Shown here one piece after another: positions 4,551-36,219 of a DNA stretch of 64,000 bases. Origin of the DNA: Planctomycetota bacterium (GTDB lineage: Bacteria > Planctomycetota > Planctomycetia > Planctomycetales > Planctomycetaceae). Below the pieces are notes generated by a model. It was given only the letters and a program-made list of their open reading frames with translations. It made no database searches and was not told the DNA's origin. Location: assembly GCA_003388505.1 (NCBI GenBank), contig QQVO01000006.1:124001-188000 (forward strand). Direction: 5' to 3'. A program made the translations under genes and the position numbers. Within the stretch, counting starts at the first letter, position 1. Each line of letters begins with the position of its first letter.

Positions 4551-7500
4551 TCAGCGAGCATCCGGATCAGACTCATGTTCCTTCGACTGAATCAACTCCC
4601 TCAGACCATCCGCGGAAAGTACAACGCGGAATCCGATGTAGTAAGCCGTTTGCGCCGGGAGCCGAAATCCTGACCGGAACCCCCGTGGGGTGTAGTCAAA
4701 CGCTCCGCCGCGCGCGACCGTGGCTGCACCATCGACGACAGGATCGATCGACGGCGCGTCAGGGGTGACGGGATATCCGTCGGCGTACCAACCGTCGAAA
4801 CACAGTTCCCACAGGTTGCCGGTAATATCATAGAGGCCGAACGGATTCGGTCGCAGTTCACCGACGGCGTGTGTGCGTCCTCCCGAATTATCAACGTTCC
4901 AGCCGGCCTGATTGAGTTGTGCACTTTCATCGCCACACCAGAAGGGCGATTCCGTCCCGGCGCGGCACGCAAATTCCCATTCGGCTTCCGTCGGCAATCG
5001 ATAACCGTTTCCCGAGATTCTCGTCACGTATGGATCCGCCTGAAAGTAGTGAGGTCTGAGCTGCGCCATTCGCGTAAGAGTCTGGCAGAACGCTACCGCT
5101 TCGGCCCAGCTGATGCTTTCGACAGGAAACCTGCCGACATCAAGGCCTTCCACCTTTTCACTGAACGAGCCGGTTGGCGAAAACTGAGAGGGATTGGTTC
5201 CTGTCGCCGCCTCGTACTGCTGCTGCGTGACTTCGTACTTACCGAGATAAAACGGCTTCCGCAGGATTACTTCGTGCCGTGGTGCTTCTGAGCGCCCGGC
5301 TGCTTCTGAGATGACCCCACCCGTCGCGATGTAGCTCTCGATCTCATCCTCAGTATTGCCCATCGTAAACCGACCGGGCGGAATCAGCACGAATTCGATC
5401 CCGTTTCCATCGGTATAGGCGACTGGGAGACCAAGGTAGTCGGCCCACGCCTGCTGCAGCGATGCGGCCGCCGTCTTATCGAATGGGACCACGGCAATCG
5501 ACGGAGCATCTTCGGGAACGAGCGGTTCTTCTTCAACAGGCGGTAGTGGTGTGACAGTATCCGTATCGAGCAGTTCCTTCACCGCGTCAACCGTCAATGT
5601 CACACGAAATCCGGTAGCATAGAAGGCCGATGCCTTGTAGCGCATGGACGGGCTCACGGACCAGTCCCATGCCCCCCCTTTCGAGAGGCGTGTCGTGCGC
5701 GGAGATGTTGGGTCAACGGCCGGTTGGTCGCCATGTTCCGAGAGGAATCCGATCGGCAGACCGTCCTCACAGATCTCCCATACATTGCCGAGCATCTCGT
5801 GTAATCCGAACGGATTGGCAGACAATTGGGCAACCGCGTGAGATCGTTTTCCGCTGTTGGAGCTGATCCAGGCGTGTTGTTTGACTCGGTACACACCCGA
5901 GTCATCTTCGCCGAACCAGTACGTTGACTCCGTTCCCGCGCGGCAGGCGTACTCCCATTGGGCCTCTGTCGGGAGTCGATACCCGTTGCTACGCAAGAAC
6001 GTCACCGTGTCGCCGGACCGAAAGTAAACTGGAGGAATTCCTTCCCGCCGGCCCAAGTCATTGCAGAAGTCGATGCAATCGGCGTAGGAGACGTTCTCCA
6101 CCGGATGCCGGAAGGTATCCAGTCCGACGACTGAATCGGCCCCCTCGCCTTCCGCACAGAAATGGGACGGGTTGACCGCCATCACGTCCTGATACTGTTG
6201 CTGAGTGACCTCGGTGACGCCCAGATAGAACGGCTGGGTCAGGACCACCGGATGTGGAGGGTCTTCGCTCCCCGGAAAGCCTCCCTGCGTATATTTCTCG
6301 ATTTCCGCCTCGCTGCTCCCCATCAGGAATTCCCCCGGCGGGATCAGGCGGAACCGCATCCCGATGCTGTTTTCGAACTCCACCGGCACGCCGAGATGCT
6401 CGGCCCAGCCTTGTTGATGCTGCCGGGCCTGTTCGGCATCAAACGGTGCAATCGCCGGAGCGGGCGCGTCTTCGGGCCAACTGTAAGAGTTCGTCTCAGC
6501 CGTGGTTGCATCAATTGGTTTGTCTCTCAGTTGTTGCTTGACCGCATCCACCACCAATGCCACACGAAAACCAAAGCTGTTGGAACGGTAAGTCGAACTG
6601 TAGGAGAGGCGACTTGACGAACGGCAGTAGGGTGGAGCGAAGCCCCAATGGCCGCCGCGGAGCACGTGCTGGTCGTCGGTTAGGATTGGGCGAAATGGAT
6701 CGACGGCGACATTCTCCGCGAACTCTTCATAGAACGCCGGATCCCAACCGTCCTGCACCCACTCATACACATTGCCATGCATATCGAACAGACCGAACGG
6801 GTTCGCACTCAGTTCAGCCACGGCGTGAGTGCGACCGTCTGAGTTGCTTCCGAACCATCCGACCTGCCGCAGGTCGTCGTCGATGTCACCGCTCCAGACG
6901 GGGGTTGTCGTCCCGGCCCGGCAGGCGAATTCCCACTCTGCCTCTGTCGGCAGGCGGTAACCGGTTCCATTCAGCACTGTGACCGTTTCGTAAGCTCGAT
7001 AGTAGAACGGCTTCAACTCTTCCTGCTGACTCAGCTTCGTGCAGAATTCGGCCGCGTCATTCCAGCTTACCTTTTCGACCGGAAGGTTGCCGGTGTCCAT
7101 GTCGGCGACCTTATCCTTCCCTGCGCCGTCAGCAGAGAACTCTGATCGGTTGTTCTCCATCAACCTGACGTATTGCGATTGTGTCACCTCCGTCGTGCCA
7201 AGATAGATTGGCTGCGTGAGAATCACTTTGTGTTGTGGAGCTTCACTCTGAATCCACTCACGCCAGTCTTGGTCTTCGCCAGCAACTTCCAGAGCGTCTT
7301 CAATCTCCTCCGGCGTGCTCCCCATCAGGAATTCGCCCGGCGGGATCAGGCGGAACTTCATGCCGATCGAGTTTTCGTATTCGACCGGCACGTCGAGGTA
7401 CTCGGCCCAAGCTTCCTGATGCGCCTGCGCCTGCTCGGCATCAAACGGTGCAATCGCCGGCGCCGGTGCGTCGTCGGGCCAATGGTCGTGCCAGTTGTCA

Positions 7501-9140
7501 CCCGTTCGCACACCCGGTGAACGCGCGGTTGCCCGTGCACCTTCCAAGCTCATCCGCACGACGGTCCGTCCGTCGCGGGTAATGGAGACGAGTTCCTGCT
7601 TGACCGGCTGGCCGTCCTTGGTTGCGGCGACTTCGTACTCTCCGGGGCGCAGCGTCAGTTCTTCCACGCCGCCGCCGTTGATGGTGACCTCTTCGCCATC
7701 GATGGCGACCTTCAGGCCGGGATCGTCGGTTTCAATCACAAGCGTTCCTTCGCCCGTCGCCAGCCGGATGACGGTCTTCGCGATCTTGGTCACCCCGGTC
7801 GCTTCGGTGATTCCCAGACAGGCGAGCAACACCAGGGCCGCCGCTGCCACCTTCACGAGCGGTCGCTGCAGGACGGGTCGCGTCTGCCACGACCTGGCCG
7901 GCGCGACGGACTCATCCTGCCGCTTTGCAGGGGCCGGGATCTGCGGTGTGCGTCCGGCTTCCATGTCCGACAGGCACTGCGCCAGCAATTCGCTGACCTC
8001 TGTCGCCGATGCATAGCGGTGATCCGGGTCCTTGGCGTGCAGATGCGCGACGATCTCGCACACCCAGCCCGGCACTTCGGGGATCACTTCCTGGATCGGC
8101 CGTGGCGTGTCTTCCGTGACGCGCTTGAGAACTGCCATTGTAGTCGGGGCGCGAAACGGCGGCCGGCCGCTGAGCATCTGGTAAAGCACACTGCCGAAGC
8201 TGAACAGGTCGGCCCGCTGGTCGAGCTTCTGGCCTTGGGCCTGTTCAGGGGCCATGTACATCGGTGTGCCGGCGATCATGCCGCTCTGCGTCATGCTGGC
8301 GTCGTCAGCCGTGCGTGCCAAGCCAAAGTCGGTGATCTTGACGTGGTCGTTAACGCTGGTTTCCAGCAGGATGTTGCCGGGCTTAATGTCGCGGTGGATG
8401 AGATCCCGCGCGTGTGCAGCGGCGAGACCGTTGGCAATCTGCTGGCCGATTCGCAGAACGTCTTTGATGTCGAGCGGTCCGTGTTCGTCGAGACGCCGTT
8501 GCAACGTCTGTCCCGCAACGTATTCCATCACCAGATACGGAATCGGCTCGTCTTCGACCGCGTAGATGCCGACGACGTTGTCGTGTCGTATCGCGGCCGA
8601 CGAACGGGCTTCGCGGAGAAACCGCTTGCGGGCCGGGGACGTGGATGCCATCTCCGGCGAGAGCACCTTGATCGCCACGACGCGGTGCAGCTTTTCGTCG
8701 AATGCCTTGAGCACGATGCCGAAGGCACCGCGCCCGAGGACTTCCTCGATCTCGTAATGCGCCAGCCGTCCCAGCGAGCCTTCTTTCGTTGAAAATTGCA
8801 GAAAACCGAGTGGAATCTCGTCGGACCTGTCGTACTCTCCCTGAAGAATCGTTTCGGGACAGTTGACGTTTTGTTCTTCGGTGGTCCCATCAAAATAATC
8901 GTGTGGCGCGGCGTCCGGGCCGGTCTCGACTATCGTGGGCGACGGGTTTGCGGGGTCACCGGACATCTGCTGCATGACGGGCGTATTGAGGAACTGGCTG
9001 CGGCTCTCATGCGACGCCAGCAGCGCCTCAACTCGAGCCAGCAGTTCGGTATCCCCGGCGCACGCCGCCTGCAAGTGCGCCGCGCGCGCGGTGGGATCTT
9101 CGATTTCCAGAGCCGACAGAAAGAGTTCTCGTTCGGACAT
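4551..9140 (-). CDS. membrane Ser/Thr kinase with three FGE-sulfatase (SUMF1) modules
   Basis: This 1529-aa protein has five parts. Residues 1-60 are the acidic helical region common to planctomycete kinases. Residues 128-390 are a Hanks-type kinase with all key residues: GRGAFG loop 136-141, Lys158 (AIKVL), HRD 249-251, DFG 271-273 and APE 297-299. A single membrane helix lies at about 427-450. A PEGA-like beta domain follows (464-535). Three FGE-sulfatase/SUMF1 modules occupy about 590-865, 922-1185 and 1247-1515. Each module is introduced by a shared linker (DDAPAPAIAPFDAEQA, then a Gln-rich helix and LGVPVE). Typical module motifs are seen, such as IPPGEFLMGS, RLPTEAEWEFACRAG, NPFGL and GFRV. 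The three modules should face the periplasm. The ECF sigma gene 79 bp upstream is on the same strand. The catalytic Cys pair of true FGE is missing (see findings), so the modules more likely bind a ligand. Confidence 0.93.
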   Translation of the reverse strand: MSERELFLSALEIEDPTARAAHLQAACAGDTELLARVEALLASHESRSQFLNTPVMQQMSGDPANPSPTIVETGPDAAPHDYFDGTTEEQNVNCPETILQGEYDRSDEIPLGFLQFSTKEGSLGRLAHYEIEEVLGRGAFGIVLKAFDEKLHRVVAIKVLSPEMASTSPARKRFLREARSSAAIRHDNVVGIYAVEDEPIPYLVMEYVAGQTLQRRLDEHGPLDIKDVLRIGQQIANGLAAAHARDLIHRDIKPGNILLETSVNDHVKITDFGLARTADDASMTQSGMIAGTPMYMAPEQAQGQKLDQRADLFSFGSVLYQMLSGRPPFRAPTTMAVLKRVTEDTPRPIQEVIPEVPGWVCEIVAHLHAKDPDHRYASATEVSELLAQCLSDMEAGRTPQIPAPAKRQDESVAPARSWQTRPVLQRPLVKVAAAALVLLACLGITEATGVTKIAKTVIRLATGEGTLVIETDDPGLKVAIDGEEVTINGGGVEELTLRPGEYEVAATKDGQPVKQELVSITRDGRTVVRMSLEGARATARSPGVRTGDNWHDHWPDDAPAPAIAPFDAEQAQAHQEAWAEYLDVPVEYENSIGMKFRLIPPGEFLMGSTPEEIEDALEVAGEDQDWREWIQSEAPQHKVILTQPIYLGTTEVTQSQYVRLMENNRSEFSADGAGKDKVADMDTGNLPVEKVSWNDAAEFCTKLSQQEELKPFYYRAYETVTVLNGTGYRLPTEAEWEFACRAGTTTPVWSGDIDDDLRQVGWFGSNSDGRTHAVAELSANPFGLFDMHGNVYEWVQDGWDPAFYEEFAENVAVDPFRPILTDDQHVLRGGHWGFAPPYCRSSSRLSYSSTYRSNSFGFRVALVVDAVKQQLRDKPIDATTAETNSYSWPEDAPAPAIAPFDAEQARQHQQGWAEHLGVPVEFENSIGMRFRLIPPGEFLMGSSEAEIEKYTQGGFPGSEDPPHPVVLTQPFYLGVTEVTQQQYQDVMAVNPSHFCAEGEGADSVVGLDTFRHPVENVSYADCIDFCNDLGRREGIPPVYFRSGDTVTFLRSNGYRLPTEAQWEYACRAGTESTYWFGEDDSGVYRVKQHAWISSNSGKRSHAVAQLSANPFGLHEMLGNVWEICEDGLPIGFLSEHGDQPAVDPTSPRTTRLSKGGAWDWSVSPSMRYKASAFYATGFRVTLTVDAVKELLDTDTVTPLPPVEEEPLVPEDAPSIAVVPFDKTAAASLQQAWADYLGLPVAYTDGNGIEFVLIPPGRFTMGNTEDEIESYIATGGVISEAAGRSEAPRHEVILRKPFYLGKYEVTQQQYEAATGTNPSQFSPTGSFSEKVEGLDVGRFPVESISWAEAVAFCQTLTRMAQLRPHYFQADPYVTRISGNGYRLPTEAEWEFACRAGTESPFWCGDESAQLNQAGWNVDNSGGRTHAVGELRPNPFGLYDITGNLWELCFDGWYADGYPVTPDAPSIDPVVDGAATVARGGAFDYTPRGFRSGFRLPAQTAYYIGFRVVLSADGLRELIQSKEHESDPDAR

Positions 9141-9219: not shown

Positions 9220-9798
9220 TCAGATTTTCTCCGAATTGTGTTCAGCGCCGCGGATTTCCCGGTGCAACCAGGCCCGGGCCCACGCCCAGATGCGGTCGGC
9301 TGTTCTTGGAGAAACACCCAACATCTCCGCCGCTTCCGGGATCGAGAGCCCGGCGAAATATCTCAATTGAATGAGCTGAACTGCTTGTGCGTCTTCTGTT
9401 TCCAGCCGGTCCAGTGCCTCATCCAGTTCAATCAGATCCTCGTGAATCTCCGAAGCGACGACCGGAATCTCGTCCAGTTCCTCTCGCACTCGATCGCCAC
9501 CCCGTTTGAGGCGGCCCTTGCGGCGGGCTCCGTCGACCAGAATCCGCCGCATCGCCTCGGCCGCTGCGGAGAAGAAGTGCCCCCGGTTTTCGAAGTGCTG
9601 GGCCTGCTCGCGATCGACCAGCCGGACGTAAGCCTCATGCACCAGCGCGGTCGCCTGCAATGTATGATCCGGCGACTCCTGAGCCATCCGTAGTGCAGCG
9701 AGCTTGCGCAGTTCTTCATATACCAGCGGGAGCAACTGCTCCGCTGCCGATGGATCGCCCGACTCAATCTGCTGCAGAATCTGGGTGACGTCGCTCAT
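9220..9798 (-). CDS. ECF-like RNA polymerase sigma factor (TIGR02999 type)
   Basis: The 192-aa product has sigma region 2 (QLLPLVYEELRKLAALRMAQ, then TALVHEAYVRLVD and GHFFSAAAEAMRRILVDGAR) and region 4 (LRYFAGLSIPEAAEMLGVSP followed by RTADRIWAWARAWL). This is the planctomycete/acidobacterial ECF type that usually sits beside a large Ser/Thr kinase, as here. I start it at 9798 (MSDVTQIL), which matches the normal family N-terminus; the frame continues 37 codons upstream without similarity. It should direct transcription in response to a signal passed through the neighbouring kinase, which is inference from gene order. Confidence 0.92.
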   Translation of the reverse strand: MSDVTQILQQIESGDPSAAEQLLPLVYEELRKLAALRMAQESPDHTLQATALVHEAYVRLVDREQAQHFENRGHFFSAAAEAMRRILVDGARRKGRLKRGGDRVREELDEIPVVASEIHEDLIELDEALDRLETEDAQAVQLIQLRYFAGLSIPEAAEMLGVSPRTADRIWAWARAWLHREIRGAEHNSEKI

Positions 9799-10104
9799 GA
9801 CGACGTTCAGAATACGGTACCCAAGGGCAACACGCCATGATTTGCTGGTGAAACGACGTAGCGAGTCGATCTGATTCGACGCACGAATCGCATGGGTTCG
9901 ATCGCGCAATCAACTCGATCAATCTCGACGTCTACGAGCATTCGCCAACTCCATCCGGTGATCGCGACCGGGAGCATTTCGGAAAGTGTGGAACTCGCTT
10001 CAGGGAAACACGCCTGCCGCAGATTTTGATCGTGCGAAATCTGCTGAGGTCCTGCACATCGGAGCGAGGTCGCGCCCTTGTTCGATCATGAAGGCTGAAA
10101 CACC

Positions 10105-14058: not shown

Positions 14059-14577
14059 GTGTCGTCGACGGAAGGTGAATCCAGGATTGACCCTGCGGCG
14101 ATTGACCGACTCTATGCAGAGCATGGCGCGGCGCTGCGTGGATTCCTGAGAGGCCTACTGCGAAACGACGACGCGGCTGCCGAGGCGCTGCAGACGGTTT
14201 TCAGTAGAGCGATTTCTCAAGGGGGGGACGTCGAGCCGGGCGCCATGCGGGCCTGGCTGTTTCGAGTGGCCTACAACGAGGCAATGGCAATCCGGCGGCG
14301 GCAGGGGGTCGAGAATCGGTCGCTTGCCCGATTGGCGCGGTCCTCGCCAAAGTTTCCCGAAACGCCGGAGGAGGCGGCGATCGGTTCCGAGTGGAAAGAA
14401 CAGATTCAGCAGGCGATGACTCGGCTGCCGGAAGAACAGCGGGATGTTGTGCGGCGGCGGATCTACGACGAGATGACGTTTGCGGAGATCGCCGAGACCC
14501 TGGGCGTGCCGTTGGGAACAGTGCTGACTCGCATGCGACTGGCGCTGAAGAAACTTCGCAAGGCTTTGACCGAATGA
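14059..14577 (+). CDS. ECF RNA polymerase sigma factor
   Basis: The 172-aa protein has sigma-70 region 2 (IDRLYAEHGAALRGFLRGLL, then AAEALQTVFSRAI and AWLFRVAYNEAMAIRRR) and region 4 (RLPEEQRDVVRRRIYDEMTF, AEIAETLGVPLGTVLTRMRL). The start is a GTG at 14059. The anti-sigma-like gene overlaps it by four bases (ATGA), a standard sigma/anti-sigma arrangement. Confidence 0.92.
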   Translation: MSSTEGESRIDPAAIDRLYAEHGAALRGFLRGLLRNDDAAAEALQTVFSRAISQGGDVEPGAMRAWLFRVAYNEAMAIRRRQGVENRSLARLARSSPKFPETPEEAAIGSEWKEQIQQAMTRLPEEQRDVVRRRIYDEMTFAEIAETLGVPLGTVLTRMRLALKKLRKALTE

Positions 14578-15161
14578 CCGGGATGCATGACGGCGAATCC
14601 GACGAACTGACTCTGACTGCGTTTCGGTACGTCGCAGGAGAGTTGAGTTCTGAGGAGCAGCGGACGTTCGAGTCGCTGCTGGAAGCAGATTTGGACGCTC
14701 AACAGGCGCTGGCGGATATCGTGCTGATTTGCGATGCGATTGTTGATTCTCCGGACGCCTTTCAGCCGCAGCGCGTGCAACGACGGGCGGCTTCCGGCAG
14801 GTCGCCGGGGCGAGCGCGTGGTTTCGCCGTCATGGCGGCAGTCGGTGCAGTTTTGGTCGTGTTGCTTGCTCTGTGGACGGGGTTTCCCACGGGTTTAGAT
14901 GTGGCGGGTGACGGCTCGACGGGTGTCACGCAAGGCGAGGAGGTTGATTCGATTGTTTCGATCTGGAGCCAACTGGGCGCTGCCGATGGCGACGACGGTG
15001 TGGCAGAGACGTTCGACGATCCGGATGAGGACGACCCGGGATCAGAAGACGCCGTGGAGGAATTTCCCGACTGGTTGATGTCCGGAGTTTCCGGCGACCC
15101 GGATGATTCCAACCTGCTTCCCGCACCGGGCGACGACGAACTCGAGGAAGATGAGAGTTAG
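14574..15161 (+). CDS. membrane anti-sigma-like protein
   Basis: This 195-aa protein has an acidic cytoplasmic N-terminus (LTAFRYVAGELSSEEQRTFE, the usual start of planctomycete anti-sigma proteins), one membrane helix near residues 82-100 (FAVMAAVGAVLVVLLALW) and a very acidic, Asp/Glu/Pro-rich C-terminal tail outside the membrane. I see no HxxxCxxC zinc motif, so it is not a ZAS-type anti-sigma by motif. The ATG at 14574 overlaps the sigma stop. The role as anti-sigma is inferred from position and layout. Confidence 0.75.
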   Translation: MTGMHDGESDELTLTAFRYVAGELSSEEQRTFESLLEADLDAQQALADIVLICDAIVDSPDAFQPQRVQRRAASGRSPGRARGFAVMAAVGAVLVVLLALWTGFPTGLDVAGDGSTGVTQGEEVDSIVSIWSQLGAADGDDGVAETFDDPDEDDPGSEDAVEEFPDWLMSGVSGDPDDSNLLPAPGDDELEEDES

Positions 15162-27514: not shown

Positions 27515-30500
27515 TCAGGGCAAGCGCTTGCGGTGAATGACGAACTTCCGCCAGTCGAAGCGTCCGGGGACGGCGTCGGTCGGGTCGGTGTCGATATACG
27601 CCTCCTCCAGCCGCGACATGTCGATGACCAGGAAGTCCCGATGGCCGGAGATGTCCTCGATGCGGGCGCCGATCTGGACCACATTGGGGAAATTCACGGC
27701 GTCGGGCTGATGCGCCTCGAAGAACTCAAAGCCGACCCACATGAAGAACACGTGCGAGCGGTTGGTTGAGTTGTTGGCAATCTTGCACAAGAGCCGGTTA
27801 CGGGTGTGGAAATCGACGTTGTCCGTCCCCACGTCGGCCGTCCCACGGGCTTCGAAGAGTTGCAGGCTGTTTAACGCGCCCGCTTGCAGGTGCGGCCTGA
27901 GAATCGTGTCCCGCAGGCTGTGGTCGGGCGAATTCGGGTTGATGTATCCCATGCCGCGGAACGGGTGGGAGCCGGGGACGCCGGGCAACGGCAGGTTGGA
28001 GAAGACGTCGAGACCGTCGCGGGCCACGAGCAATTGCTGGAACCAGTTGCGGCCGGCGTCGTAGCCGTCGTCGCTCGGGAAGGTGTTCACGAAGTCCGGC
28101 AGGTCGCCCGAGCCGGTTCCGAAACGGCGGATCTGCGGATCGTCAATCAATCCGGCGAGAACCGGGTCGTGCCGCAGCGTGTTGAGGTTGATATGCCCCG
28201 GCGTCCGGCGCAGCAGGGCCATGCGGTCCTGAATCTCCTGATGCGAGCGGGAAGGAATCTCGACGAATTCCAGCAACCGGTAGAAGCGATTCACACCGAT
28301 CGTGTTCCCCGAACCGTCGTCAAAGCCTTGCGGCAGCAGGAATCTCGCTGATGCGGCCGTATGTCCCGTCATAGTCGGCGGAGTACCAGCCTCAGCCAGA
28401 TTCCATGCCGGGCCTCCCTGATTGAGATACACCCAGGGCAATGCCGACGACTGTTCGCGATGACCGTAAAGAGGGATGGACAGCAGTTCATACACTGAGG
28501 AGAAATCACGGTCGAAGTGCGGTTGCCAGACGCTAAACGACTCTCCGGTCCTCCGTAACTCTGAATTTGCCGCGTGCCGCCCAACTGCCGATGGATACCC
28601 AATCGTGTGTGCTCGTCCTGGGTAGCTTGTTCCATCTGAATAGGTCACACCAATCGTGGGAGTTCGACCAGACGTATGTCGAGGCGTAAACGGTTCGTCC
28701 CATTCGGTGCTTTCTGTATTCTGCACCGCAGTCGAGAGTCCACTGCTGGTTTGAAATCTGACCGGGTCGACAGTCATTCGGTCGACTTCAATCCAGTCGT
28801 CATCAGACTGAGCGATATCACCATGGCCGTGCAGTGTGCGGCGACGCTGAAGAACCACATCAAATGGTACGGCGGATTCGTTGACCTGAACGAGTGTCCC
28901 CACCGGATCCCCCGTTCCGCTATCGCGCCGTATCGTTAAGTTAAAGTGACCCTGATGATCCGCTCCACCAGCATCGGAATAGCTCACGTCAAGGTCCGCC
29001 ATAATCGGAGGGTGATCGTTTTGCTCATCCGTGGGCAGCGTCATGTCGCTGTCGAGCTGACTGTATGGGACGACTGCGTTGAACAGACCGTCGCTGTCGA
29101 AGTCGACATACAGCGTTGACGAACGCCGCTGACCCATGTTCGTGCCCTGCGGAACCACAACGGTATCGTCATGCATCGCAACGACAAAATTCTCGCCGGG
29201 CCCGATGTCGCTTGCTGGGTCTAGGAATTCAAGTTCTGCATCGCTTGGAGCGGTCGGCGATCCGACAGGCTGGCGAATGATACGCCAAGTATCGTCGTCG
29301 AGCGGAACAGTGAACGGCGTGGCGTTACGCAGTTCGATATACAGGAAATTGCGCTCGTTATCTTCGTCGTCCCAGAACGTGTCCGTATTGTTCATGCCTG
29401 CAGGGAGTCTCTCAGTCTGCACCCAAAGCACTTCGCTGAACGTGAGTTGTTGGGCTTCGACTCCGTTGACAACCTGATTTGGCGTATCCCAGCCGTTGCG
29501 CAGGTCAATGTCGTATTCAAAACGTGTGATGACGTTGTCTCGATCGAGCGCGTCCACGTAGTTGACGGCAAACTGCGCGAACTCGCGCAACCGATCGGGA
29601 ATGCCGTCGCTGTCTTGTTCTTCGCTGTACGCGTCATTGAGGATGTCCAGGTTGTCCCGGCCAGCCAGCGTGTACAGTAGAACGTAGATGTCCCGCGCCA
29701 GTCGCTGGCGGTCGTAGCGGGCCCACCACTCTTGAGCCACCGGATCGCTCGCGATCGCATTGAATGCGTACGGTGTGGCAGCACCGTTATCATGCACCAT
29801 CGCCGGTACGGTCGAACCCGCACCGCTGCCGGGAAAGTCCGGATGCGGCACGAGATTGCGGAACTGCGGATTAGCATTGGCGTCGAATGCACCGTAACCA
29901 TCATACGGAGCGTTATCGTCCGAAAGAATGCGGTTTAGATTTAGCCTTAGACGGGCCGCCCTCCGGTTCGCTCCGATGTTGTCGTTCGTCGAGTCTTCCG
30001 ACTTCAAGAGCAACCGGACTTCAGGGCGGAATGGATCGTATCTCTGACCTGCACGAGTGTCCGGAGTTCCGTCATAGAATTCTGGAGGGAATGCTTCTAC
30101 ACCGGGTGGAGTCTCAAAGTCACCAGTTCCAACCGCCCATGATGTATATTCCCATACCGATCGGTCGGCACCGGAGTTTTGCGCGACAACCGGCGTTGCG
30201 GAGAACTCACGGCGGTCCCAGCTTTCGGTCGTGAACTGTTTGCGGATATCCCTCGCAACGAGGCTGTCGCGGAGGTTGAAGGAGGCGAGTTCGGCCAAGC
30301 GCGACTGCCCGCCGCTTCGCTGGAAAGCGGCGTCGGAGAAGTGCAGAAACTCATTCTCCGCCGGATCGAACGGAGCGTCGTCCTCGGCCTGGAGCGGGAA
30401 ATTCGATTCGAGAATGATCTCGTCCCCTTCGTCGGTCAGTCCGTTCACCGCCCCCGGCTGCAGCGCGCTGGCGATGGCCGTGCGGTATGTTTCGACGCCA

Positions 30501-32356
30501 TGGATCGGCCCGCCGCCCGACTCCTGGTTCTGCCAGTTGGCATCGTATTCCGGCCACGTGCTGGGGTTATTCGCGATCGGGTTGTTGGCCAGGTAACGTT
30601 CTGCGCCGTTCGGCGCCGATCCGCTGTTGCGGTCGAGGTAGAGGCCGAAGCCGCGGTAGTCGAGCGGATGCACGAATGGCGGGACGACCAGGTTCTGCAG
30701 GTCGGCGTCCGAATAGGGGTAACCGCCGTACGGGTTCGCGTTCGGGCCGATCGAGGCGATCGCGTCAAGGTCGTCATCGGCGCCGGTCGTGCCGGGCAGC
30801 GGAATTGAAGACGTGCTGAAATCGAGCAAACCCGGTTCTCCCCAGCGGCCCGTTTGCGGACCGCCGACAAGAATCCGCAGCAGTTCCATGTTGGAGGACG
30901 TCATCGTTTTCTCGGTCGTATCAGCGCCGCCTGTGAAATACGTGACCGGGTCGAAACCGAACTGCGCTCCATGGCTGCCGAGCGCATATGACAGATAGCT
31001 CGCATTGAGATGGTCGGGATTCTGAGGCTGCGCGGCCAGCGCCCAACCGGGATTGACCTCGGAGACCGACAGGCCCAGGTTCGACATCGTCATCGGCAGC
31101 GCGGAGCCGAGCGGATGGCTCAAGCCGTTCGTGTAGTTCGGGTTGAACAGCAGATCGGCCGAACCGTGGGCGTTGAGATTCAGCAGGGCGTCGGCGTCGA
31201 CAATCTTGACGTAATAGAGCGGGACCGCCTGCCGGCCGTCGGCGAGATTGATGATCGGGTGATCGAGGTCCAGCCAGATCGAATCAAGAATTCCGTCGCC
31301 GTCCGCGTCGACGTCGTACTGTTCCGGCTGGCCGGGCCCCGAGAAGATCCCGGCCGTTCCCGCGCCGAAGTCGAAATCGGCGATGATCCGGTTCCGATCG
31401 CCGCTCCGGGCGGCTGTGCCGATCCCGCCGGTGAACAGATAGCGCTGCGGAGTCAGGGACGTATCGAGCGTTCCGTTCTGGTTGAAATCCTCGCCCGGAT
31501 CAAGGTTCGTGTCGTTGTCGAGATCCTCGTTGACGAAATACCGATGCTCAAAATGCGGCCGAAACACCTGCCGCCTCGTATTTGCATCGGTGTACAGGTC
31601 GCCGAACCCGTTGGCCCGCTTTCGCGGGAAGAGTTGCGGCCGGAAATAGGACGGGATCAGCACGCGGCGGGGCGGCGTCGTCGGCAGCACGGCTTCATAG
31701 GCCAGCGGCAGGCAGTTGACGTCCGGATAGGTATAGCCGGCGTCGGTCTCGAGCGCCCCGATGCCAAGCGGATCGGTGCTGAAGTCGTAGGTCGAACCGC
31801 CGTTCGCCGTGGCGCTGAGGTTCAGGATGAAATTGTCCTGATCGGGATTCGTTGTCGAGAGGACGCCGTCGTAATCCAGGGAGAAACCCGCGACGTCGTT
31901 CGTGCCGTCCGGCGGACTGCTGATGTCGAGATTGATGTCCGGGATGCCGTCAGGAGGGGCCAACCCCGTGCTGTTGTCGACGTTGTCGACGTACCGGATC
32001 GTGATCCCCGACCCCGAGTGCGGATTGACGTCGCTGGGAATCCCGTTGATGTTCACATGCCCGACGACGTGCGCCAGCAGCGTCCAGCGGTTGCCGAACA
32101 GCGCGCTGTCGGTGTACTGCGCCGGCGTGCTCACGAGGAATTGTTGCAGTCCGTGGTCCAGCACGGGGTCGGGGTCGACTTCCAGATCCCCGGCGTCGTT
32201 GAACCTCTCGGCGCTTTTGCGGGCCTGGTCGCTCCAACTGAAAAAGAAAATCCCCAGAAACGTCAGCGCCGCCAGGAGCGAGAGCACGACGACGATCACC
32301 GCGCCCCCCTGGCGGGGGGAGTGGGTGGTGGGTAGTGGGTAGTGGGTCGGTCTCAT
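27515..32356 (-). CDS. giant GspK/PilX-like pilus or secretion protein
   Basis: The 1613-aa protein opens with a short leader and GGAVIVVVLSLLAALTFLGI, the hydrophobic N-terminus of PilX/GspK-type minor pilins, which lack the usual Glu5. GspK proteins are normally about 300-350 aa, so this is five times larger. The bulk is a large Asp/Asn/Pro-rich extracytoplasmic region with no recognised enzyme domain. It holds several EF-hand/TSP3-like loops, such as DVDADGDGILDSIWLDLD, DPGEDFNQNGTLDT and QDSDGIPDRL, that probably bind calcium. The C-terminus has VNFPNVVQIGARIEDISGHR. It closes the pseudopilin gene series, the usual place of gspK. The leader (MRPTHYPLPTTHSP) is encoded by a simple repeat, so the start may be further in. 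Confidence 0.75.
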   Translation of the reverse strand: MRPTHYPLPTTHSPRQGGAVIVVVLSLLAALTFLGIFFFSWSDQARKSAERFNDAGDLEVDPDPVLDHGLQQFLVSTPAQYTDSALFGNRWTLLAHVVGHVNINGIPSDVNPHSGSGITIRYVDNVDNSTGLAPPDGIPDINLDISSPPDGTNDVAGFSLDYDGVLSTTNPDQDNFILNLSATANGGSTYDFSTDPLGIGALETDAGYTYPDVNCLPLAYEAVLPTTPPRRVLIPSYFRPQLFPRKRANGFGDLYTDANTRRQVFRPHFEHRYFVNEDLDNDTNLDPGEDFNQNGTLDTSLTPQRYLFTGGIGTAARSGDRNRIIADFDFGAGTAGIFSGPGQPEQYDVDADGDGILDSIWLDLDHPIINLADGRQAVPLYYVKIVDADALLNLNAHGSADLLFNPNYTNGLSHPLGSALPMTMSNLGLSVSEVNPGWALAAQPQNPDHLNASYLSYALGSHGAQFGFDPVTYFTGGADTTEKTMTSSNMELLRILVGGPQTGRWGEPGLLDFSTSSIPLPGTTGADDDLDAIASIGPNANPYGGYPYSDADLQNLVVPPFVHPLDYRGFGLYLDRNSGSAPNGAERYLANNPIANNPSTWPEYDANWQNQESGGGPIHGVETYRTAIASALQPGAVNGLTDEGDEIILESNFPLQAEDDAPFDPAENEFLHFSDAAFQRSGGQSRLAELASFNLRDSLVARDIRKQFTTESWDRREFSATPVVAQNSGADRSVWEYTSWAVGTGDFETPPGVEAFPPEFYDGTPDTRAGQRYDPFRPEVRLLLKSEDSTNDNIGANRRAARLRLNLNRILSDDNAPYDGYGAFDANANPQFRNLVPHPDFPGSGAGSTVPAMVHDNGAATPYAFNAIASDPVAQEWWARYDRQRLARDIYVLLYTLAGRDNLDILNDAYSEEQDSDGIPDRLREFAQFAVNYVDALDRDNVITRFEYDIDLRNGWDTPNQVVNGVEAQQLTFSEVLWVQTERLPAGMNNTDTFWDDEDNERNFLYIELRNATPFTVPLDDDTWRIIRQPVGSPTAPSDAELEFLDPASDIGPGENFVVAMHDDTVVVPQGTNMGQRRSSTLYVDFDSDGLFNAVVPYSQLDSDMTLPTDEQNDHPPIMADLDVSYSDAGGADHQGHFNLTIRRDSGTGDPVGTLVQVNESAVPFDVVLQRRRTLHGHGDIAQSDDDWIEVDRMTVDPVRFQTSSGLSTAVQNTESTEWDEPFTPRHTSGRTPTIGVTYSDGTSYPGRAHTIGYPSAVGRHAANSELRRTGESFSVWQPHFDRDFSSVYELLSIPLYGHREQSSALPWVYLNQGGPAWNLAEAGTPPTMTGHTAASARFLLPQGFDDGSGNTIGVNRFYRLLEFVEIPSRSHQEIQDRMALLRRTPGHINLNTLRHDPVLAGLIDDPQIRRFGTGSGDLPDFVNTFPSDDGYDAGRNWFQQLLVARDGLDVFSNLPLPGVPGSHPFRGMGYINPNSPDHSLRDTILRPHLQAGALNSLQLFEARGTADVGTDNVDFHTRNRLLCKIANNSTNRSHVFFMWVGFEFFEAHQPDAVNFPNVVQIGARIEDISGHRDFLVIDMSRLEEAYIDTDPTDAVPGRFDWRKFVIHRKRLP

Positions 32357-32446: not shown

Positions 32447-34366
32447 TCATTCCACAAACGAGTGAATCAGGGTCACTTGTCGATGCTGGTCGCTGCCGGG
32501 GTCACGGAAACGGACGGTGATGCGGATCTGCTCCAGGCCGATGCGGTTGTCGAAACATTGCCAGACGACGTCGCCGTCGCGAACGATGGCGCCGGGTTCG
32601 CGGGGCCATTCGGGTTCTTTGCCTCCACTGGTGCCGCCGTTGACGACGATATAGCCGTACGAAAAGTTCGGTGGACTCAGTCCCGCGTCCGGAAAGAGCA
32701 CCAGCCCCGGAGTGGCCGGGGTCGTCGCGGCCCAGGTGACGACGTTGGGATTGGGCGCGCCGCCGGTGGTTGTCGGCGAGACCTGCAGGGGGCTGAACGG
32801 CGGCGCGTTGCCCGACACCGGATGCCAGGTGTCGAACACGCGATTGCCGCCGGACGGCAACGGCCCGTAACCGGGATTCCGGTTGCCCCAACTGGTATTC
32901 AGCCCGCCGACTCCCGACTGCGTAAAAAGACCTAAGCCGGTGCCGTTTCCGAGATTGACCCAGGCCCCGTCGTCGAGGACGCCGTTTCCGTTGCGGTCTT
33001 CGCCCGAGTCGATCGTTCCGTTGTTGTTGACGTCTTCGTGATACCCGGCGTCCCAGACCTCGATGTTGAACGCCTCGGCCCCGGTGAGCAGGATGTCTTC
33101 GCCGGCCCGCGCGCCGCCGGCGTACTGCGAGACGGTGCGGTCGACGTTGAGCGTGAGGTCGGTCCGCTGCATCGGATGCTGCGCGGCCGGCGCGTCGAAC
33201 CCCGGCCACAGGAAATTCGCGTGCGACGTCTCTTCGTGCGTGTAACGTCCGAGGAAGGCGGTCGGGTTGCCGCTGCCGTCGAGCGCGAACTCCAGCGGGC
33301 GCCCGCTGCGGAAATAGAATCCGTAGCGGTTGACCGGGAAGGCGATCGGCCGGTTGCCCAGGCCGAGCGTGTTGTCGAGCGAATCGAGCCCGTGGAACCG
33401 GAAGCTGAATCCGTCGGTCGTCTCGTCGTCGATCATCCCGTTGGAGTTCGCGTCGTTGTTCCAGACGCGCGTGCCGGAATAGTCCCAGTCGTTGAGGAAC
33501 GAGTTGCCCGGATAGGGCTGGTCGAAGACGGCTGTGAACTCGCCGCCCGTTCCGGAGACGCCCTGCGTCGGCTGCGTGCTGAAGGGGGGCGAACCGCTCG
33601 AAAGGGGATCCCTGAGCAGCAGGACGCGGCGGTGGAGCTTGTCCCCCCGCATGAAGTAGACGATTTCGGCCGCCCGTGAAATCCCCGCCCCGTTGCCGAC
33701 ATTGCCGTCGTCGAAGTCGGGCTGATTGCGATGGCCGGCCCCCAGGTTCACGGCCCGGCCGAAGAACGGGGTCTGCACCGAATCGGCGACCACGGCGTCC
33801 CGCTGCGATTCTTCCAGAAAGACGACCAGGTGCAGCACGTCGTCGGTGTCGTCGAACGGGTCGTTTTCGGAGATATAGAAGAACCCGCGCTGCCGCGCAT
33901 CGGGCGTGTCGCCCGGCCCGAGCGGGACGATGCCCCGCGGCGAGACCGAAATCCCGTCCAGCCGCGCGTTCTGGTTGAAGTCTTCTTCGGGATCGTAGGG
34001 ATCAAAACTGCCGCTGCCGTTGGCGTCGAACTCGCGGAGCACGGTGGCGATGGCGCCGCGGGCGGGCGAGGCGCGGAAGACCAGCTTCTGCAGATCGCCC
34101 CGCAGCGTGGTGGTGACGGTGCGGGCCTTGGCGTCGTTGTTGGAGAGGCCCCGCTGGTCGGTGAGCGTCCCCACCGCCGCCTCGAACACCTGGGCGAAGA
34201 GCAGCATGATGAGCATCACCAGCGCCGTGGCGACGAGCATTTCGGCCAGTGTGAAGCCGGGGTTGGTCGAGGGGCGAGAGTCGAGGGTCGAGGGACGGAA
34301 GGCACGGCGGGGGCGGACCGGGGGGGCGGTTGCCGGGGTTCGCCTTATGTTCCTCGCGTGTTGCAT
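32447..34366 (-). CDS. GspJ-like prepilin, enlarged
   Basis: The 639-aa protein has a prepilin signal NPG|FTLAEMLVATALVMLIML starting near residue 37, with Glu at mature position 5. ARTVTTTLRGDLQKLVFRA after it matches the GspJ/PilW style. GspJ is normally about 200 aa, so most of this protein is extra. The extra part is rich in Asp/Asn loops such as DPEEDFNQNARLDG, DANSNGMIDDET and DSGEDRNGNGVLDDGAW, similar to EF-hand/TSP3 calcium sites. The leader before the signal is long and contains RPSTLDSRPST, encoded by a simple repeat. It lies between the PilV-like and GspK-like genes, as gspJ does in type II loci. Confidence 0.82.
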   Translation of the reverse strand: MQHARNIRRTPATAPPVRPRRAFRPSTLDSRPSTNPGFTLAEMLVATALVMLIMLLFAQVFEAAVGTLTDQRGLSNNDAKARTVTTTLRGDLQKLVFRASPARGAIATVLREFDANGSGSFDPYDPEEDFNQNARLDGISVSPRGIVPLGPGDTPDARQRGFFYISENDPFDDTDDVLHLVVFLEESQRDAVVADSVQTPFFGRAVNLGAGHRNQPDFDDGNVGNGAGISRAAEIVYFMRGDKLHRRVLLLRDPLSSGSPPFSTQPTQGVSGTGGEFTAVFDQPYPGNSFLNDWDYSGTRVWNNDANSNGMIDDETTDGFSFRFHGLDSLDNTLGLGNRPIAFPVNRYGFYFRSGRPLEFALDGSGNPTAFLGRYTHEETSHANFLWPGFDAPAAQHPMQRTDLTLNVDRTVSQYAGGARAGEDILLTGAEAFNIEVWDAGYHEDVNNNGTIDSGEDRNGNGVLDDGAWVNLGNGTGLGLFTQSGVGGLNTSWGNRNPGYGPLPSGGNRVFDTWHPVSGNAPPFSPLQVSPTTTGGAPNPNVVTWAATTPATPGLVLFPDAGLSPPNFSYGYIVVNGGTSGGKEPEWPREPGAIVRDGDVVWQCFDNRIGLEQIRITVRFRDPGSDQHRQVTLIHSFVE

Positions 34367-34605: not shown

Positions 34606-36219
34606 TTACAAGTCATACACATCGACGATCCGTTTCATCAGCATCGCGCGGCCGACCGGCGCGGGATTGTTCGAGGAATCGGCCTGTGTTGTCTGCCGGA
34701 CCGGGCTGTCGAGCGTGATGAGTGCAAGATGCGGATCCTGCGTCTCATCAACGACAACCGATCGAATCCGATACCACTCAACATTGCGCGCATCGAACAG
34801 AAACGCGCCCGGCTTCAGAAACGGATCAGGCTCATTCAAGGGATCGGGTGAGCCCGGAGCCGGATTCCATCCCACGGACGCCATCGTCGGATTCCAGGCG
34901 ATCAACACCTGGTCTGGGCCAATGCCGTCCACACCGTTCAGGCCGTCCAGATCAACCTGCGGATTGCCGAAGTTGGCGTAGTACAGATGCTCGTCCTCCG
35001 CTGAAAAGCCGCGGCGGAAGACGACCGCCATTTTGGCGTCGGTGCGGCCGTTGGCGTCCTTCTTGACCGTGATAAACCACGAGTAGCGGCGGTCGAACGT
35101 CTCGATCCGGGCGGTACCGACGACCGGGTTGCCGCTTCCGTCGCGTGGAAACCGCGCCGGAAACGGCTGCGTCGACGACCACTCGACGGTCCGTGCGGCG
35201 GGAATCACGTTTGTGATCGTCCGCGCGACGTGCTGCACGCCGTCGACCGAGGTGAACACGATCCGGCTGGGCGTGCCCAGGATTCCGTTGAGAACCACCG
35301 CACCCGGGAAGACGACCGATCCGTCCGTCGGTCCGGTGGGGTCGGCGTCGGTCACGGTGTCGGGGGTCGCCTCCACGATCGTCTCCCAACTGTCGGGGAG
35401 CGTGGTGGCGGCGGCGGCGGCGGCTTCGGTATTCAGCCCGCCGTTGATGCGCAGCAGGGCGAACGGGTCCCCGGCCGATGCGAGCGAGGCGCCGATCCCC
35501 GTCGAGACGTCGGTGCGATTTCCGAACTCGATCGAGGACGCATAGCCGTCACCTCCTGCAACCGCCCAGCCGAGGGGATCGACGACATAGGCGCGAGGAG
35601 AGAAAAGCGGAACGATGCCGCCCAGATTCGTAGGGTCGTCGTGGGGGACCTGCTCATTCGGGTCAGGGTCAATCGCGACAGCCGGCAGCGGCGCCCAGGT
35701 GGCGAAACCGTTGCCCTGGAGATTCACGTCGCTGGTCGGTCCCGTCAGGCTCCACGCCGGTTCGATCTGCCCGGAGACGCCGTTGGGCGGATTCCCCGAC
35801 CCGTCCTGAGCGTCGACGCAGATAAACCACAGGTTGGGCGAGGGATGCTGGCTGCCCGGCTTGATCGTCGGGAGGACGATGTCGCCGATTGTGTATGCCG
35901 TGTTCGGCTGCCAGAAGCCGCGGAATCGTGAATTGACGCTCGGCGACGCACTCGGCGGCGGCAGATGCGTGTTGAGGGTGATCGGGCTCGAATGGAACGC
36001 CTCGGTCGAGTTGAACTTGAGGATCTTCGACTGCGTGTGATTGTGTGCGCTGACCGCCTGCAGGATTGAGAGCGGAAACAGCGTGAGCACGCTGATTACG
36101 CCGACCGCCAGGATCAACAGCGACATCAGGACTTCAGTGAGCGTCGCGCCCATGCGGGTCGTCGGGCGGGCACTGCCGGGCGAGCCGGGAGTGGTGCGCC
36201 TGTCTCTGCGGCCGATCAT
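34606..36219 (-). CDS. GspI/PilV-like prepilin, enlarged
   Basis: The 537-aa protein carries a prepilin signal RMG|ATLTEVLMSLLILAVGVI with Glu at mature position 5; ATLTEVL with a GVISV end is the PilV/GspI style. The remaining 490 residues have no recognised domain and are rich in Pro, Asp and Gly. GspI/PilV proteins are usually 120-200 aa. The start ATG overlaps the stop of the upstream GspH-like gene by four bases, so the two are translationally coupled. Confidence 0.83.
   Translation of the reverse strand: MIGRRDRRTTPGSPGSARPTTRMGATLTEVLMSLLILAVGVISVLTLFPLSILQAVSAHNHTQSKILKFNSTEAFHSSPITLNTHLPPPSASPSVNSRFRGFWQPNTAYTIGDIVLPTIKPGSQHPSPNLWFICVDAQDGSGNPPNGVSGQIEPAWSLTGPTSDVNLQGNGFATWAPLPAVAIDPDPNEQVPHDDPTNLGGIVPLFSPRAYVVDPLGWAVAGGDGYASSIEFGNRTDVSTGIGASLASAGDPFALLRINGGLNTEAAAAAATTLPDSWETIVEATPDTVTDADPTGPTDGSVVFPGAVVLNGILGTPSRIVFTSVDGVQHVARTITNVIPAARTVEWSSTQPFPARFPRDGSGNPVVGTARIETFDRRYSWFITVKKDANGRTDAKMAVVFRRGFSAEDEHLYYANFGNPQVDLDGLNGVDGIGPDQVLIAWNPTMASVGWNPAPGSPDPLNEPDPFLKPGAFLFDARNVEWYRIRSVVVDETQDPHLALITLDSPVRQTTQADSSNNPAPVGRAMLMKRIVDVYDL

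Follow-up and report, generated by a model that had tools for sequence, protein, structure and literature searches.

A planctomycete kinase with three FGE-fold modules that probably acts on an adjacent ECF sigma factor

Gene order and domain anatomy of the locus

We analyzed a 64,000-nucleotide stretch of planctomycete DNA, called the window here (contig 3, 124001-188000), and scanned the genome it comes from (6.78 Mb, 78 contigs). One unbroken reading frame on the minus strand (4551-9140) encodes a kinase of 1529 aa. A gene for an ECF sigma factor lies 79 bp upstream of the kinase start on the same strand. We took the sigma gene to begin at the ATG at 9798, in a frame that is open as far as a TTG at 9909. 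Neighboring genes in the window include Pfam matches to PSCyt2/PSD1, DUF1501 and DUF1559, which are hallmarks of planctomycetes. A 1613-aa reading frame (27515-32356, minus strand) matched nothing in Pfam at 0.01 or in PADLOC at 0.001, and frames of 639 and 537 aa (32447-34366 and 34606-36219) gave no Pfam match at 1e-5.

Table 1. Positions in the window of the sigma gene and of the parts of the kinase gene
Feature	Position	Strand	Evidence
ECF sigma gene (Sigma70_ECF / Sig-70_X6)	9220..9798	-	PF07638 4.1e-67; TIGR02999 2.5e-63, above cut-off
Thr50 codon of sigma, in QATA (DAED place of sigma2.2), proposed phospho-switch	9649..9651	-	Thr kept in 18/18 and 39/40 relatives
N-terminal four-helix domain, aa 1-60, proposed sigma docking	8961..9140	-	AlphaFold helices; co-occurrence with sigma
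Hanks-type Ser/Thr kinase, aa 129-379	8004..8756	-	PF00069 8.5e-50; motifs
Single transmembrane helix, aa 424-446	7803..7871	-	Kyte-Doolittle 19-residue mean up to 2.16
PEGA-like juxtamembrane stalk, aa 447-545	7506..7802	-	PEGA 15.4 bits, sub-threshold
Linker and FGE-fold module 1, aa 545-870	6531..7508	-	PF03781 2.1e-45, 155.9 bits; best solved match TvpA 2y3c
Linker and FGE-fold module 2, aa 885-1192	5565..6488	-	PF03781 1.2e-36, 127.1 bits; no active-site Cys
Linker and FGE-fold module 3, aa 1203-1516	4593..5534	-	PF03781 1e-40, 140.5 bits; no active-site Cys
Direct DNA repeat, 183 nt, 82% identity, copies 6298-6480 and 7300-7482, starts of modules 1 and 2	6298..7482	-	

From its N-terminus, the protein consists of a helical domain, a disordered segment (residues ~65-106), a Hanks-type kinase domain, a transmembrane helix, a PEGA-like stalk and three FGE-fold modules (Table 1). 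An earlier note on this DNA had described a kinase with intact catalytic residues, and the Lys, Glu, HRD, DFG and APE motifs are indeed all present (GRGAFG, VAIK with K158, E177, HRDIKPGN, DFG, APE). K158, E177, H249, R250, D251, N256 and D271 are invariant in a 60-row kinase alignment. The single membrane helix that the note proposed is the sole hydropathy peak of the protein (aa 423-446; 19-residue mean above 1.6). HMM searches found both the Pkinase and the FGE-sulfatase domain above cut-off, the latter (1.5e-120) in three separate stretches that each exceed the PF03781 cut-off of 23.3 bits, so that no claimed module is missing. A similar helix-forming segment opens each of the three, in keeping with the conserved linkers noted earlier. 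The PEGA-like domain stands only as a resemblance, as its score against PEGA (PF08308) falls short of the cut-off of 20.8 bits. AlphaFold left the stalk unmodelled, with a pLDDT of 28-47 by blocks of ten.

The sigma factor and the N-terminal domain of the kinase

The window sigma reads QATA in place of the acidic sigma2.2 motif, with the Thr at position 50. Threonine is invariant at this position in 18 of 18 aligned kinase-linked partner sigmas. It also occurs in 39 of 40 sigmas drawn from a Pfam-profile list, which were chosen among the matches listed to spread over 17 genomes, none of them the source genome. The sole exception of the 40 (L234:1546-4781) has a DEED motif, and the kinase downstream has one FGE module and no N-terminal domain of this kind. 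A further 80 sigma-selected loci were left out of this count because the motif was among the patterns used to find them. Named relatives of the window sigma are mostly from Planctomycetota, with some from Verrucomicrobia and one labeled Armatimonadetes, and no solved structure matched it at 0.001. These relatives and the neighboring genes named above assign the window to the Planctomycetota.

We compared this pair to characterized kinase-sigma systems. In ECF43 pairs, DAED is replaced by STTA or QTTA and the adjoining kinase phosphorylates the second Thr (excerpts of PMC8999054 and PMC13147305). Kinase-linked groups beyond ECF43 that include planctomycete members are ECF59, 61, 62 and 217 (excerpts of PMC8999054). 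The window pair shares two ECF43-type features, an uncharged sigma2.2 with Thr and an adjacent kinase, a likeness of motif and gene order. In the PknT-EcfP system of Vibrio parahaemolyticus, a sigma without DAED is activated by Thr phosphorylation at the same motif position as we propose here, but phylum and stimulus (polymyxin) are different (PMC8999054, excerpts). PknS of Xanthomonas citri is likewise a membrane kinase adjoining an ECF43 sigma, EcfK, with Thr at the sigma2.2 switch (PMC13147305, excerpts; structure 9eed). The words sulfatase and formylglycine are absent from the PknS-EcfK text (PMC13147305), whereas the window kinase has an FGE ectodomain. By analogy with these pairs, the window kinase probably phosphorylates the neighboring sigma and thereby switches it on. 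The phosphosite could differ from Thr50, since a T51A variant of EcfK is reported to be functional in vivo and a linker site, T106, to be important (PMC13147305, excerpts).

The first 60 residues of the kinase are predicted to form four helices (3-11, 16-26, 31-52 and 55-59) followed by a disordered tether. The mean pLDDT is 96-97 for aa 1-40, 87 for aa 41-50 and 69 for aa 51-60. No Pfam family matched this 55-aa domain above cut-off in three examples. Its profile found PknS (9eed, residues 11-55) as the best PDB match, with a weak E of 0.017 against 0.54 for the next. The first 81 residues of PknS are invisible in the crystal and predicted to form three to four helices and a flexible linker (PMC13147305, excerpts). 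Our literature search, which included excerpts of that paper, found no statement of a role for these helices, and "docking" does not occur in the text covered.

The N-terminal domain and the sigma family occur together. In a draw of 59 genomes, both were found in exactly the same 18, and neither was found in the other 41 at the thresholds used (sigma family E <=1e-30, N-terminal domain E <=1e-3). At most 46 and 109 first-look candidates per genome were scored in these two scans, so per-genome counts are lower bounds, and weaker members may have been passed over. Kinases were present in all 59. The source genome has at least two sigmas of the family, at least two N-terminal domains and 61 Pkinase matches. 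Among 37 kinase-selected reading frames of at least 300 aa (three of 40 were shorter and left out), the N-terminal domain is present in 20, and 18 of these have a sigma of the family upstream, in one case 1228 bp away; L061 and L084 have the domain and no adjacent sigma. Only 319 bp could be viewed upstream of L072. Some sigma match lies upstream of four of the 17 kinases that lack the domain (L053, L065, L066 and L069_3), and the sigmas upstream of L066 and L069_3 show acidic stretches.

Sets selected in other ways gave comparable tallies. For 82 scorable kinase frames out of 85 in the sigma-selected set, 66 had both elements, two a sigma without the domain, eight the domain without a sigma within 600 bp, and six neither. 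In the Pfam-drawn set of 38 kinase frames, 23 were adjacent to the sigma and had the domain, and three were adjacent without it (L205, L211 and L234); of those non-adjacent by our limits, eight had the domain and four had neither. Viewed from the sigma, a kinase lies beside it within the limits set in 63 of 79 sigma-selected and 24 of 38 Pfam-drawn cases. The 14 Pfam-drawn sigmas that remain comprise five with an N-terminal-domain kinase elsewhere or overlapping beyond the limit (L203, L214, L215, L218 and L224), two with a kinase lacking the domain (L235 and L236) and seven with no kinase. Seven plasmid records from four phyla also carry a sigma and a kinase. Our first profile gave the N-terminal domain a score in five of them (4e-17, 1e-11, 2e-5, 0.014 and 0.11) and did not find it in L168 and L173, for which a second profile gave 0.3-0.9.

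We asked which part of the kinase diverges along with which part of the sigma, using distance matrices for 83 kinase-sigma pairs and Mantel permutations, an approach that corrects only partly for descent. Region 4 was defined as the last 70 alignment columns of the sigma and region 2 as the first 90. The N-terminal domain correlated with region 4 (r 0.379; partial 0.368 with kinase and region 2 controlled for), a value reached in 0 of 1000 permutations, and its correlation with region 2 was 0.044. The kinase domain correlated with region 2 at 0.249 and with region 4 at 0.202 (partial 0.137), and kinase windows of the same size as the N-terminal domain reached at most 0.241 (partial 0.166) against region 4. 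When only distant pairs were kept, the N-terminal domain fell to 0.208 against region 4 and the kinase lost both correlations (-0.072 and 0.016). A run with 87 pairs gave a similar picture. These correlations suggest that the N-terminal domain docks on sigma4 and that the kinase may phosphorylate sigma2.

In five of 13 kinases without the N-terminal domain (L052, L056, L057, L082 and L085), the N-terminal end instead includes an HxxxCxxC stretch. It resembles the signature of zinc anti-sigma domains, and such kinases possibly represent a second kind of sigma coupling.

The FGE-fold modules

A CxxxxC pair that follows GG in the last third of FGE forms the catalytic copper site. None of the three modules has a full copy of this pair. 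The corresponding regions read GGHWGFAPPYC in module 1, which retains only the second Cys, GGAWDWSVSPS in module 2 and GGAFDYTPRGF in module 3. Two free-standing FGE proteins from the source genome keep the pair intact (L001 GGSFLCNDVYC and L002 GGSFMCSDTYC), and that of L001 aligns with the pair in the FGE structure 6s07. In a tally that counts overlapping fetches of one gene (e.g., L002 and L072), the pair is missing from 58 of 59 kinase-fused modules and from 38 of 41 modules outside a kinase frame. The one kinase-fused module that keeps it (GGSWDCNTSLC) belongs to L218:3873-6713, a kinase with the N-terminal domain.

In both sequence and predicted fold, module 1 lies nearest to TvpA, the Treponema denticola variable protein. 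Sequence searches gave TvpA (2y3c) at 1.6e-31, PorK at 4e-13, PvdO at 5.8e-13 and FGE enzymes at 8.7e-11 or weaker. Foldseek placed TvpA first for the predicted fold (2.6e-19). VIA-align comparisons, which span module 1 only (model residues 137-422), gave Z 32.3 for TvpA (rmsd 2.2, 251 aligned), 28.9 for PvdO and about 24-26 for the FGE structures 2q17, 6muj and 6s07. TvpA is reportedly diversified by a retroelement and is not known to be fused to a kinase. The FGE enzymes have the fold in common with the window modules, which lack their copper-site Cys pair. The missing pair, together with the nearness of module 1 to TvpA in sequence and predicted fold, suggests that all three modules are probably non-enzymatic binding modules. 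Their arrangement could not be read from an AlphaFold model of the ectodomain, which had a pTM of 0.49 and a partly poor module 2.

The earlier note placed the modules outside the inner membrane. The charges flanking the helix are indecisive, with four Lys/Arg on the N side and three on the C side, and the positive-inside rule is thus uninformative. A different Cys pair is common to all three modules and to 48 of 59 kinase-fused modules; it may form a disulfide, which would agree with extracytoplasmic modules. In planctomycete kinases with a single membrane span, the SUMF1 domain usually lies in the periplasm (PMC11032199, excerpts). From the single helix, the Cys pair and this published location, we infer that the modules lie outside.

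We examined whether the modules arose by internal duplication. In a tree of 45 modules, with 22 of 42 inner branches drawn open for lack of resolution, module 1 joins modules of kinases from other genomes (a 7-row clade, 97/98), apart from modules 2 and 3. Constraining modules 1-3 to a single clade lowers the log-likelihood by 39.8 (p-AU 0.030), which is moderately strong evidence only. A recent triplication of one module as the sole origin is thus disfavored, and a pairing of modules 2 and 3 is not rejected (p-AU 0.375). Neighboring modules are duplicates in other proteins of this tree (L056, 100/100; L063, 100/99). At fourfold sites, identity was 319/583 within proteins and 1602/3659 between proteins for module starts, and 374/1005 and 1956/5766 for module middles (22 pairs in 12 proteins against 150 random between-protein pairs; the pairs are not independent). 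The greater sharing of silent sites at module starts within proteins hints at local recombination or gene conversion through the linkers. Identity between modules was 408/1100 (0.371) over the last 50 aligned residues, 1122/1870 (0.600) at the start and 2035/3781 (0.538) in the middle. Between different proteins, in the same order, it was 2531/7500 (0.337), 6987/12750 and 11562/25374. The last 50 residues presumably correspond to the end that varies in TvpA.

The source genome has 15 PF03781 matches, counted as 12 genes, and four kinase-FGE fusions (the window kinase, L072, L073 and L074), one of them with three modules. We counted arrays in 18 genomes: eight from the same family (G000 and seven picked for good matches) and ten further relatives. 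Frames with three matches occurred in three of the 18, which agrees with the earlier view that such tandems are less usual; they are uncommon yet recurrent. All five lie in the eight same-family genomes (G000:C3, G011:C477, G011:C516, G032:C13 and G032:C201). The kinase of G011:C516 sits in another, overlapping frame, and G032:C201 begins at a contig end. The ten further relatives had no three-match frame and two two-match frames, G008:C592 and G012:C752, the latter without a kinase. L087 (F1-120-MAGs210) combines sigma, N-terminal domain, kinase and three modules, and L174 resembles a three-module array with its kinase in a second frame that overlaps it. No array longer than three modules was established; L119 has four profile matches, only two of them longer than 180 residues, and its contig ends there.

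The view in the earlier note that SUMF1 kinases are known in a few bacteria is contradicted by a published survey, in which SUMF1 ranks third in abundance among accessory domains of planctomycete kinases and occurs in almost all species (PMC11032199, excerpts). A cytoplasmic kinase, one transmembrane helix and an outer SUMF1 domain is therefore an already published architecture that is common in the phylum. We found no description of tandem SUMF1 copies in excerpts of that paper or in the open-license papers searched, and those excerpts mention neither non-enzymatic modules nor a sigma partner. What differs here is probably a SUMF1 receptor kinase with three non-enzymatic modules that is wired to a phospho-switch sigma.

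A proposed receptor and competing explanations

We scanned the ectodomains of nine other kinases that share the N-terminal domain. WD40 repeats occur in L061, L062 and L076, LRR in L069, and a 3-keto-disaccharide hydrolase domain with PD40 and LRR in L071; no family was found above cut-off in L068, L080, L083 and L084. The cytoplasmic part of the window kinase is 65% identical to that of L071 and 71% to that of L067, which has two FGE modules. With varied ectodomains on similar cytoplasmic parts, the FGE array looks like one interchangeable sensor among others on a conserved platform coupled to sigma.

The earlier note proposed a receptor kinase with a triple lectin-like sensor. This is still the best reading of the anatomy, but it overlooked the sigma partner and the N-terminal domain, which indicate the probable destination of the signal. 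In the model we propose, three non-enzymatic, TvpA-like modules of C-type-lectin fold would bind ligand outside the cytoplasmic membrane, perhaps several ligands or a repetitive one, for example a surface polymer or a polysaccharide. Binding would alter the pairing or conformation of the kinase through its one membrane helix. The N-terminal four-helix domain would hold the partner sigma by region 4, and the kinase would phosphorylate Thr50 in the QATA of sigma2.2. Phospho-Thr50 could then provide the missing negative charge, allowing the sigma to bind RNA polymerase and turn on its regulon. We consider it reasonably probable that the protein is a ligand-gated transmembrane receptor Ser/Thr kinase that holds and phosphorylates its own ECF sigma. 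More tentatively, the N-terminal domain may be a dedicated docking domain that grips sigma region 4, retains the sigma at the membrane pending receptor activation and marks a class of kinases. Sigma switch, docking domain, kinase and helix would then form one chassis for interchangeable sensors, FGE arrays included.

The sigma could instead be a mere neighbor of a kinase with many substrates or an envelope target, with modules that serve adhesion or scaffolding and sense nothing. SUMF1 kinases without a sigma neighbor exist (L048, L052, L056 and L057), so the modules do not require the sigma arrangement. We nevertheless consider this explanation unlikely, as the QATA sigma, gene adjacency and the N-terminal domain coincide in most cases examined and across genomes, and proteobacterial pairs are reported to act by phosphorylation (PMC8999054 and PMC13147305, excerpts). 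Defense models from PADLOC matched the window kinase by kinase-domain resemblance only (best 25 of 35 families).

Two further explanations concern the modules themselves. They could be active enzymes, formylglycine-generating or other SUMF1-type oxidases, tethered to the kinase to mature sulfatases, for example, in which planctomycetes are rich. By Pfam family and fold they belong with SUMF1, and models for EgtB, PvdO, OvoA and SenA match, all below cut-offs, which shows that the fold can carry other active sites. This reading is very improbable given that modules 2 and 3 have lost both copper-site Cys and module 1 has lost the first, that separate FGE proteins with an intact pair exist in the same genome, and that module 1 has a variable protein, and not an enzyme, as its nearest solved relative; we reject an active FGE on the absent pair. 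That same relative could point to a target of a diversity-generating retroelement (DGR), or to a defense receptor with hypermutated modules. The end that varies in TvpA is the least conserved between modules, and a figure legend on DGR targets lists Pkinase as one of its domain abbreviations (PMC10907252, excerpt). However, conservation is lowest at this end between different proteins too, and a search of the 78-contig assembly for RVT_1 and template copies found no such retroelement. The only RVT_1 match of the genome (L046:1288-2811, contig 17) best fits the PADLOC models RT_other, RT_outgroup (retron) and RT_XIII. No template-like copy was seen; six other matches to module DNA span 38-80 bases at 74-88% and lie inside other FGE genes. 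We regard a DGR target or hypermutated receptor as the least credible of these explanations.

Sigma-coupled reception remains our preferred reading. Many planctomycetes have dozens of kinases, very few of which, to our knowledge, have an assigned output. If the N-terminal domain and QxTA jointly mark sigma-driving kinases, sequence by itself would reveal the output of such a receptor, and its sensor, for instance the triple FGE array, could be tested with a sigma-dependent reporter. The SUMF1 domains of these kinases, 58 of 59 of which lack the Cys pair of the enzyme here despite the family name, would also gain a function.

A second ECF-like sigma is encoded in the window (14059-14577, plus strand; Sigma70_r2 and r4). 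The reading frame that follows it (14391-15161) has one hydrophobic stretch by eye and is possibly its anti-sigma partner.
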